Virus record (IMG/VR): IMGVR_UViG_3300010885_017259 | Span: 1 to 34,880 of that record | DNA: 34,880 bases | Strand: one strand, 5' to 3' | Source of the DNA: a virus | In this document: piece after piece, positions 3,073-13,575 of the stretch | How the letters are laid out: each line of letters begins with the position of its first letter | Numbering within the stretch: position 1 is the first letter of the stretch | Made by a program: the position numbers and the translations under genes | The notes under the pieces: model-generated | The model's database searches: none | Told to the model about the DNA's origin: nothing | Seen by the model: only the letters and a program-made list of their open reading frames with translations

Positions 3073-3509
3073 GTTATATAATTACACTTGAGAACGATCC
3101 AGAAACTGGCGATTTGATTTTGCCATTGCCAGATGAATTGTTGAGAGAAGCTGGTTGGCAAACTGGCGACACTTTAGACTGGAAAGATAATGGTGATGGA
3201 ACATTCACTATGACTAAAAAAGAAGAAACTGAATGGGTACTTGTTGAAGCTATCTCTCAGTTCCGTGAACGCTATATGGTCGAAGTGCCAAAAGGCAAAG
3301 CAGAATGGGCTCTTGATACTGTAACCCTGAATGAAGCACAAGAATTTAGCCAAGAACATCTTGGTGAAGTGATTGTCTCTCACCGTGTTGTATCATTTGA
3401 TGAAGCCTTGGAAATGTGTGATAAAGATAATCACTATTGTAAAGATTGGGACAATGAGCACAAGATAAGCGCCTTCTTTACAAAGGAAGGCGTAAAGTAT
3501 GACGTATGA
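3069..3509 (+). CDS. AbrB/MazE-like N-terminal domain protein
   Basis: A 146-residue acidic protein. Residues 1-50 look like a swapped-hairpin AbrB/MazE-type fold: a short strand, GDLILPLPDELLREAGW, then GDTLDWKDNGDGTFTMTKK, matching the 'lP.el...gw..Gd.l.w...dg' pattern of that superfamily. Residues 55-146 form a separate, acidic alpha/beta region (FRERYMVEVPKGKAEWALD, EHLGEVIVSHRVVSFDEAL) with no motif I can name. AbrB-type domains bind DNA as dimers, often for autoregulation, but the acidic charge here argues for caution. It lies between the MazG-type gene and another conserved phage gene, overlapping both. Confidence 0.7.
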   Translation: MSYIITLENDPETGDLILPLPDELLREAGWQTGDTLDWKDNGDGTFTMTKKEETEWVLVEAISQFRERYMVEVPKGKAEWALDTVTLNEAQEFSQEHLGEVIVSHRVVSFDEALEMCDKDNHYCKDWDNEHKISAFFTKEGVKYDV

Positions 3510-4048
3510 ATATTTTTTACCTAGATCCTGATCCCAAAGTTTGTGCAGAGATGCACAACAACAAGCATACTGTAAAAATGATTATTGAGTATGCACAGCT
3601 TATGTCCACAGCTCATCGTCTGCTTGATGGCGAAGAATATATTGATATGACGGCTAATGGTCGCCGTATTAAACGCTGGCGCCTGCAAGATGAACGTGAA
3701 CAACAATTAATGAAGGCTTCACATATCAATCATCCATCGGCTATTTGGTGTCGTGACAATAAAAGCAATTATCTTTGGTTGTATGTAATGTGGACTCATT
3801 TGTTAGATGAATACACTTATCGCTATGATAAAATTCATGCTTGCTCTAGGTTAAAAACATTGCTAAGTTTTGCACCAAACAATATTACCACCGGTGATTT
3901 TTTTGCTCCTACGCCGGCGATGCCTGATGATGTAAAAGTTCCAGGAAATTCTTTGGCTTCTTATCGCAGTTACTATATAAACAACAAGGCGCATTTAGCG
4001 TCATGGAAAAAGCGTAATCAACCGGAGTGGTATAGTGCCCTTGTATAG
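3506..4048 (+). CDS. Conserved phage protein (MNIFYLDPDPKVCA type)
   Basis: A 180-residue protein with a well-defined N-terminal motif: MNIFYLDPDPKVCAEMH, then NKHTVKMIIEYAQLMSTAHR. The two histidines, Asp-8 and the Lys-Met pair look like conserved active or binding residues. Further motifs are HINHPSAIWCRDNKSNYLWL and PNNITTGDFFAPTPAMPDDV. I have seen this pattern in many T4-like phage genomes without an assigned function. It is soluble and has no membrane segment. Its end overlaps the next gene by 14 bases. Confidence 0.75.
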   Translation: MNIFYLDPDPKVCAEMHNNKHTVKMIIEYAQLMSTAHRLLDGEEYIDMTANGRRIKRWRLQDEREQQLMKASHINHPSAIWCRDNKSNYLWLYVMWTHLLDEYTYRYDKIHACSRLKTLLSFAPNNITTGDFFAPTPAMPDDVKVPGNSLASYRSYYINNKAHLASWKKRNQPEWYSALV

Positions 4049-9824: not shown

Positions 9825-9849
9825 AACCCCGCTTCGGCGGGGTTTTTTT
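9825..9849 (+). terminator. Intrinsic terminator after gene 32
   Basis: Perfect 8-bp stem AACCCCGC (9825-9832) / GCGGGGTT (9837-9844) closed by a stable TTCG tetraloop and running into seven T residues (9843-9849). It ends + strand transcription between the convergent genes. The U-tract overlaps the stop codon of the minus-strand tape-measure-like gene. On the minus strand the hairpin lacks a following U-tract, so it looks one-directional. Confidence 0.95.
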
Positions 9850-11845
9850 ATGTGACTCTGCCAAACAAGGTAGTAAACACATCATCGAATGCTGATGGTA
9901 TGTTTGGAGTACCTTGAGTTCCTTGGCCACCGCCACCAGTTTTACTGTTGTTGTTGGTGGTATTATTGTTTATGATAGTTGTTCCCGCTTGACCAGCACT
10001 TGCAACTTCCATTGAAGCTGTTGTTAATGTGCTACCTGTTGATGGTCCAGTTGAACCAACCATACCAGCCGACCCAGTAGGCGTGGCAGATGAAGCTACA
10101 GATGCACCACCTAGGCCTGAATATTCTGCACCTCCAATTTTTCCAGTATTATAAGCTGTAGCCATGAGGGCAGCACTTTTACCAACAGATGCGCCAGCAA
10201 AAGCAAAATCAGTTGTATCTTTATTTTCTTTAAAGAATTTACTGGCACCGCCGACACCGCCATGATGAGCTGCATATAATTTTGCTGCAATGGACGACCC
10301 AGAATCTTCACCAGTAAGCACACCTCTTTTTTGTAAACCTTTTAAGTTCATATCGGTATAAGCGTTCATTAAATTTTCTTGTATGTCCGATGCTTTCTTA
10401 AAAGCATCAGCTGAATCTATGCCATTTTTTCCAGTCCAATTTGAAGGACTATAAACAGCATTTCTATCCGCACTTGTTCCTGGTTTTAAATATCCAAAAG
10501 TCTCTAAAGCTTGAGAGCCAAATTGATACTTACCAAGAAAACCAACTTTGTTATCAGCATCATATTTTCCACCACCTTCTCGTATACCAACCAATTCTTT
10601 ATATTTGGTATAATCAAATTTTTCAATAGTAGGTGTTTTTAATGTTTCTTTTGAAGCTCCAGGTATACTTGGTATTTTTGATGGCGCATTGGTGTTAGCT
10701 GATTGGCTATCAGCTTCTGGATTATATCGTGGCAAAGGTGGTGGTTCTGGTGCACCAATTTCAGCATCCATTCTGTCAGCAATTTTGTTCCGTTCTTGGC
10801 GGGCTTCTTCGACAACACGAGAATCTTTAATTTCAATAGCTCTTTTACCTAATGCTTCAGCCTCAGCAATTTTAGCTCGCAATTCATCTTTAGTCCTTAT
10901 TTCACCTCTAGTATAATCAGATACCTCTTCATCGGTCCTATCATCTTTTAATAGAGATTTTAAACCCTCATCAATACGTATTGTTCTAGCTGCAACTTTT
11001 GATGATTGACTACCTCTATCATCACCTACTCTTTCATTCATTTTTTGCGTAGTATTTGCTTCAGAATTTTTCTTATCAATTAAGTCCATTAACCATTTTG
11101 CAGCCAACAGGCCACCAACAAGGCCTAAAAATACTGGACTTGTTAGTAAAGGTAATAATGTACGAAATACGGTACTTATACCTTTAATAACATCTAAGCC
11201 AAGGCCAAATACTTTTACTAAATTATCTGGAGAAAATAATGCTCCCAATGTTGCAGTAATTGCTGAAACAATTGTTCCACCAAGTGTTAAAAGTGGTGCA
11301 AAAAGTGTTGATAAGAATCCTAAGATTCCAGTGTTCTTTTCTGGTTCTTTTGATGTTACTGGTGTTGGTGCCACACCTTTTTGTTTGCCAAATTGTGTCT
11401 CATAAGCAGCTTCATTCTCACTCGATTTCTTAAAGTACATGTCTGCTTTATTGGTTGCTTCACCGCCTTGCAGTTTAACCAACTTGATGACATTCTGTCT
11501 CATCACATTCATATCTCTGGCCATATCTGGTAGAGACATTGAATTTTTTGCAGCCACCCTAGTATTGTTACCCACAATACGCATCTCACTTGATAGAATA
11601 TCTATTTTAGATTCCATGTTTTGAGTTGAAATCTGTGGTGTTGGTGTAGATAGAGATGCAGGTGATGATTTTCCAGCAGTTGCAGAATATGTTTTGAAAA
11701 GAGAAGGTGCAATTGCAGCTGCTAAACCTTTTTGGTTGAACATCTGCCTTGGGTCAATTTTTTCAAGTGCTCTTTTACCCAAAGCCGACATTAAGCCGCC
11801 GCCTTTTTTCTTCTCTGATTTATAAATTTCTGCTAATCGTGACAT
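9848..11845 (-). CDS. Tape-measure-like tail protein with peptidoglycan hydrolase domain
   Basis: A 665-residue protein. Residues 1-160 are basic and helical. Residues about 173-262 hold long hydrophobic stretches (GILGFLSTLFAPLLTLGG, SPVFLGLVGGLLAAKWLM), typical of tape-measure proteins. A charged helical linker with a Pro-rich break follows (about 300-400). Residues about 410-560 form a lysozyme/lytic-transglycosylase-like domain: VGIREGGGKYDADN with Glu-423 as the likely catalytic acid, GFLGKYQFGSQALE, and AAKLYAAHHGGVGGASKFF. The C-terminus is Gly/Ser/Asn-rich. T4 gp29, the tape measure, is 590 residues, so the length suits a T4-sized tail. It directly follows the frameshift region of the gp26-type gene. 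Alternative: a hub lysozyme that is not the ruler. Confidence 0.75.
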   Translation of the reverse strand: MSRLAEIYKSEKKKGGGLMSALGKRALEKIDPRQMFNQKGLAAAIAPSLFKTYSATAGKSSPASLSTPTPQISTQNMESKIDILSSEMRIVGNNTRVAAKNSMSLPDMARDMNVMRQNVIKLVKLQGGEATNKADMYFKKSSENEAAYETQFGKQKGVAPTPVTSKEPEKNTGILGFLSTLFAPLLTLGGTIVSAITATLGALFSPDNLVKVFGLGLDVIKGISTVFRTLLPLLTSPVFLGLVGGLLAAKWLMDLIDKKNSEANTTQKMNERVGDDRGSQSSKVAARTIRIDEGLKSLLKDDRTDEEVSDYTRGEIRTKDELRAKIAEAEALGKRAIEIKDSRVVEEARQERNKIADRMDAEIGAPEPPPLPRYNPEADSQSANTNAPSKIPSIPGASKETLKTPTIEKFDYTKYKELVGIREGGGKYDADNKVGFLGKYQFGSQALETFGYLKPGTSADRNAVYSPSNWTGKNGIDSADAFKKASDIQENLMNAYTDMNLKGLQKRGVLTGEDSGSSIAAKLYAAHHGGVGGASKFFKENKDTTDFAFAGASVGKSAALMATAYNTGKIGGAEYSGLGGASVASSATPTGSAGMVGSTGPSTGSTLTTASMEVASAGQAGTTIINNNTTNNNSKTGGGGQGTQGTPNIPSAFDDVFTTLFGRVT

Positions 11846-12037
11846 TTATTTTGCCTTTTGTTGTTTCAATCTTTCTTTTTCTTCTTCTAAAAACTTCACT
11901 AACATATCAATATATACTTGTCGTTCCCAAGGTAACATATTATCCAATTCCGTCAAACTATATTTGTGGTGTTGCATTAACGCAAAATTAGTTTGATAGT
12001 AATTACCTAGGTTATCATAATTAAAATTTAGACGAAA
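11846..12037 (-). CDS. -1 frame extension of the gp26-type gene (putative tail-assembly chaperone T domain)
   Basis: An open frame of 63 codons in the -1 frame relative to the end of the gp26-type gene. It ends with TAA directly abutting the tape-measure ATG at 11845. The product would read FRLNFNYDNLGNYYQTNFAL and then MQHHKYSLTELDNMLPWERQ, ending in a charged helix. Between the frame's upstream stop (12071-12073) and the ATG at 11975-11977 there is no ATG, GTG or TTG. That internal ATG has no ribosome site, so independent translation would yield at most 43 residues. Slippage at 12034-12043 gives a 306-residue fusion. Best read as a frameshift product; the alternative is a 43-residue protein started at 11977. 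Confidence 0.65.
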   Translation of the reverse strand, partial: FRLNFNYDNLGNYYQTNFALMQHHKYSLTELDNMLPWERQVYIDMLVKFLEEEKERLKQQKAK

Positions 12038-12765
12038 AAATTTTGAATTCCCTCTACCTCGATTCTTTCCTCATATCCACACTTAGGACATTTAAAGTCC
12101 AAATCTTTTTTGATTTTTGGCATGGTTGAAAAGAAATTTTGAATCTTCTCTACATCATCTTGTTGCAAGTTCTCAATAAACTCCACAAGCTCTTCTTTTG
12201 GTGTATCTTTTGCATAATACATTTGGTTCTCATCGTAAATGTAATCAATACAATTCGCAATGATATCGATTGTCTTTTCTATATTGTTTTCAACTGATTC
12301 ATCATTGAATGATGTTTCAAAACTAGGATACTTCATAACAAGTCCAAGTTTTGGTGAAATAACAATTTTAGTAGAATGTTCTTTATCAATTGTTGGTTCA
12401 ATCTCCAACAATTTTAAATCAAACTTAACTAGACCACCACATGTTTTTTCTTCACCATCATCTTTTTTGACAATGTTGTTACAGTTGTATTTGAGGTTAA
12501 CTACCTCACCCACAGACCTAGCACGAAGCTGCATGAATAAGTGTTCAAGGTCGAATGTTGGTAATGTTTCAACATCCACATCTGATAAAATACAATTATT
12601 CAAAACTTGTTTGATAACACCAACTGTTTCTTTAACATCAGTTGATTCTGAAGCCATCATAAAAAGTTTTTGTTCTTTAACTAAGAACGGTCTAAATTTA
12701 ACCGTTTTTCCCGTTGAAATCAATTTAGTTTCATATACGGGCACATCAATTTTTGGTAAAGCCAT
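12028..12765 (-). CDS. gp26-type baseplate hub / tail assembly protein
   Basis: A 245-residue protein of the T4 base-plate (gp26) family type. The N-terminal block KFRPFLVKEQKLFMMASEST (residues 23-42), then LPTFDLEHLFMQLRARSVGE (68-87), are its conserved features. Cys-95/Cys-109 and Cys-226/Cys-229 (FKCPKCGYEE) could form a zinc site. T4 gp26 is 208 residues and takes part in hub assembly. Here the gene lies immediately upstream of the tape-measure-like gene and ends in a slippery run followed by an open -1 frame. That matches tail-assembly chaperones (lambda G, P2 E) that coat the tape measure. Both roles may be the same role in different phages. GAGGA precedes the ATG. Confidence 0.8.
   Translation of the reverse strand: MALPKIDVPVYETKLISTGKTVKFRPFLVKEQKLFMMASESTDVKETVGVIKQVLNNCILSDVDVETLPTFDLEHLFMQLRARSVGEVVNLKYNCNNIVKKDDGEEKTCGGLVKFDLKLLEIEPTIDKEHSTKIVISPKLGLVMKYPSFETSFNDESVENNIEKTIDIIANCIDYIYDENQMYYAKDTPKEELVEFIENLQQDDVEKIQNFFSTMPKIKKDLDFKCPKCGYEERIEVEGIQNFFV
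12034..12043 (-). promoter_or_regulatory. Candidate -1 ribosomal frameshift site
   Basis: Read on the minus strand, the 0 frame is CAA AAT TTT TTC GTC TAA. This holds two overlapping X_XXY_YYZ heptamers in the right phase, A_AAT_TTT and T_TTT_TTC, two sense codons before the stop at 12028. A -1 slip at either heptamer enters the same open frame that runs to 11846. No strong downstream hairpin was obvious by eye; only a weak TGATA/TATCA pairing was seen. Confidence 0.6.
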
Positions 12766-12780
12766 ATTATATCCTCACAT

Positions 12781-13575
12781 TTAAAATATTAATCTACTAA
12801 CTGGTGTAATCAGTCTTTCACTAATTGAGTTGCCAGCTTTGTCGAAGAATCTGGATGCTTTGTCTCCAAATAGTTGAGCTGCCGCAGCAGCAATATCATA
12901 TTGACCAGAATATACCACACGGTATTTTTGGTACGCAAATTGAACCGTCAATCGGTGAAATCCTTCTTCAGACCATGACAATGGCTGAGCAGCAATGGAA
13001 ATTGGATAAGCATCAATCATTTCCACCGCATAAATTTGTTTGATAAAATCATCATACTGAATAACCTTAATATTGGTCATGTAACCAGTACCAGTGTTAC
13101 CGCCTTTTGGAAAACGCAAGTTGTTGGTATCAGATGGCATAATTGCATCTAACCAGCGGTCAAATAACTTGCGCTCATAGAATTCGTTTGTGCATACAAA
13201 ATTTAATGCAAGCTGATTATATTGAGTTTGATATGGAACTTTAAATGTTGGTCCATAAATTTTAACATCAGTTGTTATTAATTCTCTACCTGGCAATTCA
13301 GCACTCTCACATTGTAAAGCTAGATATCTGGATATAGCTGCATTGCTAGTTTTAGATTGGCCGTCCGCAGATTCATTGCCTAAAATTTGATTAATAGCAT
13401 CTGAAACATCTGTTACAATTGTTGTTGGTAGATTTAAAAGTTTTTCGAGTGCTGATGATTTAACGAAATCATTAACGTATTGTGGAATAGGAAGAATAAC
13501 CTCGAAACGGTTGTTCTTTGCTAGACCATCTTTAGCTTTGATATTGGACAGAAATGATTGTGGTGTAAAAGCCAT
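12781..13575 (-). CDS. Tail tube-type protein, probable baseplate tube initiator (gp54-like)
   Basis: A 264-residue protein with the gp19-like tube fold signature: LALQCESAELPGRELITTDV (about 88-107), KIYGPTFKVPYQTQYNQLAL (about 109-128), then FYERKLFDRWLDAIM and a strand-rich C-terminal half (VIQYDDFIKQIYAVEMIDAYP). gp19 tube subunits are about 165 residues. The longer size and location next to hub and gp48-type genes fit gp54, the protein that starts tube polymerisation on the baseplate, rather than the major tube. The Ala-rich tail (AAAAAQLFGDK) is unusual. An AGAGGGA ribosome site precedes the ATG, which overlaps the stop of the upstream gene. Confidence 0.75.
   Translation of the reverse strand: MAFTPQSFLSNIKAKDGLAKNNRFEVILPIPQYVNDFVKSSALEKLLNLPTTIVTDVSDAINQILGNESADGQSKTSNAAISRYLALQCESAELPGRELITTDVKIYGPTFKVPYQTQYNQLALNFVCTNEFYERKLFDRWLDAIMPSDTNNLRFPKGGNTGTGYMTNIKVIQYDDFIKQIYAVEMIDAYPISIAAQPLSWSEEGFHRLTVQFAYQKYRVVYSGQYDIAAAAAQLFGDKASRFFDKAGNSISERLITPVSRLIF

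Follow-up and report, generated by a model that had tools for sequence, protein, structure and literature searches.

The window, i.e., the whole stretch of 34,880 nucleotides analyzed here, encodes on its minus strand a gp26-type protein that matched PF12322 (T4_baseplate; E = 2.1e-62) and phrog_150 (E = 1.9e-68). The gene has T4-like neighbors, with tail tube, gp2, and gp4 types upstream and a gp48-like cap and a gp53 wedge beyond. The features at and around the gene are as follows.

12781..13575, minus strand: upstream tail-tube-like gene (phrog_45 tail tube, E = 5e-34)
12028..12765, minus strand: gp26-type gene, predicted short tail-assembly chaperone (TAC-N), 245 aa
12049..12054, minus strand: Shine-Dalgarno (SD)-like GAGGGA, candidate frameshift stimulator
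12037..12043, minus strand: second heptamer, A_AAT_TTT, in phase, not conserved, rejected as the slip site
12034..12040, minus strand: slippery heptamer T_TTT_TTC, in phase, predicted -1 frameshift site
11846..12034, minus strand: -1 frame extension (TAC-C), 62 codons plus stop, the "gp51" of database annotations
11846..12765, minus strand: predicted frameshift product, 306 aa (gp26 residues 1 to 244 plus 62)
9848..11845, minus strand: next gene, probable tape measure, 665 aa

We found no tape measure family match for the downstream open reading frame (ORF) at 9848-11845. Based on its position, its length, hydrophobic stretches near residues 174 to 250 (hydropathy), and a lytic domain that is lysozyme-like (residues 408 to 553; phrog_27932, E = 6e-23), we conclude that it probably encodes the tape measure protein. 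The length of its probable counterpart varies widely in relatives, from about 530 to over 800 codons.

The gp26-type gene ends with CAA (12045-12043) AAT (12042-12040) TTT (12039-12037) TTC (12036-12034) GTC TAA (12030-12028) and thus contains the two in-phase slippery heptamers that an earlier note on this DNA had read there. Open from 12070, the -1 frame ends at a stop codon (TAA, 11846-11848) that abuts the ATG at 11845 of the 665-codon ORF, as the note had also described. A slip at T_TTT_TTC leaves 62 codons to be read (12034-11849); the 63 codons counted previously hold only for a slip at A_AAT_TTT, and the 306-residue length given for the fusion is correct. The predicted junction peptide is ...GIQNFFRLNFNYD.... 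ATG, GTG, and TTG are all absent from the -1 frame upstream of the ATG at 11977, in line with the earlier reading, which erred in calling that ATG the only one in the extension (others lie at 11938 and 11905). In a codon-shuffle control, the chance that the final ten codons of a single gene contain T_TTT_TT[C/T] was ∼0.006, even before the open, conserved -1 frame is taken into account. Two other in-phase runs of this kind occur in the window, at codon 20 of 1592-1909 and codon 130 of 3506-4048, both away from gene ends; we saw no sign of a role for either.

A tblastn search with the extension recovered 512 phage records, mostly of cyanophages but also of phages of Vibrio, Sinorhizobium, Methylophilales, Pseudomonas, Caulobacter, and Pelagibacter. 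At E values of up to 1, the search also picked up Aeromonas phages and, in Acinetobacter phage Acj9, the C terminus of a full-length gp51. IMG/VR was searched with gp26 and with the extension, not with the heptamer, and together with reference genomes this provided 127 usable loci, which clustered at 85% into 69 junctions. A second set comprised 77 further loci, some of them from contigs already in the first set. A D508-type search found no relatives. The extension lay in the -1 frame relative to gp26 in every locus with both parts, and no natural in-frame gp26-extension fusion occurred among the retrieved loci.

In all 69 junction clusters (<85% identity), an in-phase T_TTT_TT[C/T] is accompanied by an open -1 frame, although this and the other counts and p-values overstate independence because the loci are related by descent. 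Among the further loci, 74 of 77 share the same register, 1 has TTTTTTA, and 2 have a stop directly after TTC; the -1 frame is open in these loci as well. The earlier note had proposed conservation of the heptamer as a check, and the T run was indeed found in both sets; because it was kept in every retrieved relative, chance is removed as an explanation. In one of these relatives (L218), the site reads T_TTT_TTA, so that the second Phe becomes Leu while slipperiness is kept. Codon usage at the site is strongly constrained across 62 aligned junctions. The codon preceding the T run ends in T in all 62 (AAT, AGT, GAT, or GCT, encoding N, S, D, or A), the first Phe codon is TTT in all 62 (gp26 background, 0.73), and the second is TTC in 57 (background, 0.27). 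Synonymous identity at the three slip codons was 1.00, 1.00, and 0.85, versus an expected 0.48 to 0.60, and no other such run of fixed synonymous sites was found nearby in this alignment.

The two heptamers fared differently in this comparison. A_AAT_TTT is present in only about half of the relatives, and a -1 frame stop lies 5′ of the T run in 13 of 62 (TGA directly 5′ in L002 and L132, and two codons 5′ in eleven others). In these 13 relatives a slip at A_AAT_TTT is excluded, and entry into the -1 frame must therefore occur at the T run, which fixes the slip at T_TTT_TTC. Of the two candidate sites put forward earlier, we thus retain the second and reject the first.

Two cases depart from this pattern. 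In Vi01-like Ackermannviridae (L006, 3729-3899; L143, 3283-3441; L231-L247), the -1 frame again carries a conserved extension, but the sequence at the site, GA[A/G] ATT TTC AT[T/C] TAA, is not a canonical heptamer; in several of these loci a -1 stop lies directly upstream of the site. Stenotrophomonas phage IME-SM1 (L141, about 3210-3225) has five Ts, compared with six in its relatives. As a result, the annotated gp26 of this phage ends in a foreign tail, and the extension falls in the +1 frame. The five-T run is probably a homopolymer error, or else a real variant.

The extension has the properties of a protein-coding sequence from its first codon on. By itself, it matched phrog_634 ("baseplate hub assembly catalyst"; E = 1.5e-26). 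The -1 frame is free of stops in 66 of 66 aligned loci, and the other two frames are interrupted in all 66. Its codon-position entropies over these loci (0.77, 0.49, and 1.17 bits) show the greatest variation at third positions, a coding pattern, so that frame conservation, a further check suggested in the earlier note, is borne out. Residues are conserved from the first codon of the extension (e.g., NYY.TNFA), upstream of the first usable ATG. A model of the extension alone was of moderate confidence (pLDDT, 72.5), and a structure search with it returned no meaningful match.

A second conserved element lies upstream of the slip site. GG at positions -11 and -10 before the heptamer is invariant in 62 of 62 junctions, mostly in the context GARGGN. 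In the GAGGGA of the window, 9 nt separate the last conserved G from the heptamer, which is within the range of 8 to 11 nt over which an internal SD sequence preceding a slippery heptamer stimulates -1 frameshifting (PMC6321510). Predicted anti-SD pairing at GARGG averaged -5.75 kcal/mol, versus -1.42 kcal/mol elsewhere in gp26 and -4.48 kcal/mol after synonymous recoding (summed Z of -8, but a mean rank of only 0.39), and GAG is used in 47% of cases at the element versus 19%. Part of this pattern reflects protein constraint, since the Gly at this position is conserved in most T4-type gp26 proteins. The arrangement resembles that of dnaX, where an SD-like sequence also precedes the heptamer at stimulator spacing. 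Unlike dnaX, which has a downstream hairpin, the junctions studied here have no conserved downstream RNA structure: over 40 loci, the mean folding z score was -0.55, and a 22-sequence alignment showed no consensus base pairs downstream. Exceptions with z scores of around -2.5 to -3.2 (cyanophages P-HM1, S-MbCM7, and P-SSM2) are not general. The conserved SD-like GARGG, a candidate stimulator, and the lack of downstream structure are possibly new.

Profile comparisons (hhalign) linked the short form and the fusion to two different T4 genes. A virtual fusion of gp26 and the extension (61-member alignment) aligned with four T4-type gp51 proteins over its whole length (248 columns, E = 1.6e-23). 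T4-type gp26 matched the first part of the fusion only (E = 8.5e-27), and T4 gp26 and gp51 proved to be paralogues of each other (E = 1.9e-14). From this pattern, it follows that gp26 corresponds to the short and gp26 plus extension to the long tail-assembly chaperone, and that T4 has both as two genes. T4 gp26 and gp51 are thus direct homologues of the proteins described here, gp26 resembling the short form and gp51 the whole fusion; the difference is that T4 has separate full-length genes 26 and 51 and no slippery site, whereas here there is one gene with a predicted frameshift. The 34.9-kb record contains a single gp26-type match, with the extension in the -1 frame only; as the record is a fragment, a second copy may lie outside it. 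An FF motif is common to gp26 of the relatives and of T4, but T4 and Roth04 encode it as TTC TTT, which is not slippery, and in T4-type gp26 generally FF is either TTC TTT or absent. The heptamer is therefore lacking where two genes exist, and T4 and Roth04 are a natural control for selection on the slip site.

The T run and -1 frame are kept in phages KVP40, AS-szw, phiN3, OLIVR5, Milchi, S-CRM01, and Mosig. Because KVP40 and AS-szw, both members of the Straboviridae, retain the frameshift layout, the distribution suggests that a gene duplication replaced the frameshift within this family. We see about an even chance for the broader proposition that T4-related phages outside the T4 branch generally make the gp26/gp51 chaperone pair with an SD-stimulated T_TTT_TTC frameshift without downstream structure and that duplication took its place in the Straboviridae (KVP40 and AS-szw versus T4, Acj9, and AS-gz).

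A structure comparison was among the checks suggested in the earlier note. The AlphaFold2 model of gp26 was well resolved (pLDDT, 88.8), and its most probable Foldseek match in the PDB was the tail-assembly chaperone (TAC) of HK97 (gp13, 2ob9; probability 0.82), although with a weak E value of 0.73 over 63 columns. The next matches, 3fgx (probability 0.72) and YqbN (0.33), were also poor, with E values of 0.7 to 2.3 among these hits; no other PDB match had a notable probability. Sequence searches of solved structures yielded nothing relevant. The model may point to the same chaperone fold as in HK97 TAC but does not prove it.

Taken at face value, the databases favor a different account, in which the extension forms a small gene of its own, translated from a dedicated start or by re-initiation after gp26, and the T run is a mere Phe-Phe motif. 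Many GenBank phage records annotate the extension as a separate "gp51" or "baseplate hub assembly catalyst," others leave it unannotated, and none of the GenBank phage regions examined contained a joined frameshift CDS. KVP40, phi-ST2, S-CRM01, Cygsa01, and PH4 (L148, 2486; L142, 3331; L149, 2489; L139, 3223; L143, 3295) have a TAATG at the end of gp26, in which the stop codon and an ATG overlap; this favors a separate start in KVP40, S-CRM01, Cygsa01, and PH4; in KVP40, phi-ST2, and S-CRM01 it occurs together with the T run. In such phages, re-initiation may add to or replace the frameshift product and yield a free extension peptide. For the locus as a whole, this account conflicts with the lack of any start codon before the ATG at 11977 and with the conserved residues upstream of it. 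That ATG is absent in several relatives, and annotated "gp51" starts vary among relatives even though the protein upstream of them is conserved. Anti-SD pairing at the first extension ATG averaged +0.65 kcal/mol (3% at or below -4), compared with -5.8 kcal/mol at gp26 starts (90% at or below -4), and so the earlier statement that it lacks a ribosome site stands. The missing SD alone is not decisive, because pairing at tape measure starts is also weak (mean, -2.0 kcal/mol). The synonymous fixation of the T run would remain unexplained by a separate gene, and in T4 gp51 a single chain comprises both parts; we regard this account as quite improbable.

The frames might also be joined by slippage of RNA polymerase rather than of ribosomes, since the conserved element is a homopolymer run within coding sequence. 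Runs that support transcriptional slippage are typically longer than the six Ts present here. The ribosomal heptamer phase X_XXY_YYZ is kept in all loci and the SD-like element lies at the spacing of a ribosomal stimulator (range from PMC6321510), and we rate polymerase slippage as less probable still. Finally, the frame break could be an assembly or sequencing error in the homopolymer, the gene being really one frame, and the differing T-run length in the IME-SM1 record shows how this might arise. The same frame relation recurs in all two-part loci, from many unrelated samples as well as sequenced isolates, and this independent evidence refutes the idea, to which we assign only a negligible likelihood. 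We conclude that a programmed -1 frameshift making a long tail-assembly chaperone is the best explanation and, judged from sequence comparison, a highly probable one.

Frameshifting in tail chaperones is textbook biology. Given a slip site, a -1 frame, conservation of both, and kinship to T4 gp26 and gp51, all directly apparent in the sequences, we infer slipping, its rate, a role for GARGG, and chaperone action as follows. Most ribosomes would stop at the TAA at 12028-12030 and release gp26 (TAC-N, 245 aa). A minority would shift back by one base at T_TTT_TTC, with both tRNA-Phe re-pairing with UUU, and read 62 more codons to make the 306-aa fusion (TAC-NC). As in dnaX, the GARGG 9 nt upstream probably makes slipping more frequent, and downstream RNA structure is apparently not needed. 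By analogy with lambda gpG/gpGT, many short copies would coat the tape measure protein, the extra domain of a few long copies would recruit tail-tube subunits, and both chaperones would leave the finished tail. The assignment of gp26 as the "G" part and of the extension as the "T" part, made in the earlier note, is supported by the heptamer, the -1 frame, and the missing start and ribosome site. The lambda slip site is G_GGA_AAG, not T_TTT_TTC, and the present system further differs in its upstream SD-like element and in a PF12322 family protein that, at 245 aa, is larger than gpG.

Chaperones of this kind are known from lambda (gpG/gpGT) and other long-tailed phages (Xu, Hendrix, and Duda 2004; reviewed in PMC5009743), and the 2016 review described the frameshift as widely conserved "except T4" (PMC5009743). 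The earlier note considered a frameshift not to be a standard description for T4-like phages, a view that is out of date. According to two papers that cite it (PMC10885494 and PMC12846349), the study of Vladimirov, Gautam, and Davidson 2022 (Virology 566:9-15) identified T4 gp26 and gp51 as tail-assembly chaperones. As cited in the PRFect paper (PMC10885494), T4-like phages have two chaperone genes, a short one and a long fused one, in place of a frameshift; as cited in the Adele paper (PMC12846349), TAC-N genes of T4-like phages have poly-T slippery sites. The Vandenendeviridae and Andersonviridae (PMC12846349) similarly have a conserved poly-T -1 frameshift near the TAC-N end, routinely misannotated, with a -1 frame open to the tape measure gene, but they are other phage families and their slip motif is GTTTTT. 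To judge by the papers citing Vladimirov et al. 2022, the finding is correct but largely anticipated; with the principle already published, the gain lies mainly in breadth, in locating the slip site exactly, and in a candidate stimulator.

The frameshift explains why cyanophage-like genomes have a tiny "gp51" ORF with shifting annotated starts. In these genomes "gp51" would be the tail end of a frameshifted protein, and many records therefore need correction. It also connects gp26 and gp51, the hub-assembly proteins of T4 that have long been puzzling, with lambda G/GT and removes the "except T4" exception of reviews. Close relatives rely on either a frameshift or two genes, and so the proportion of short to long chaperone may be compared between natural designs; if duplication did replace the frameshift within the Straboviridae, these phages would allow two natural means of setting one protein ratio to be compared.
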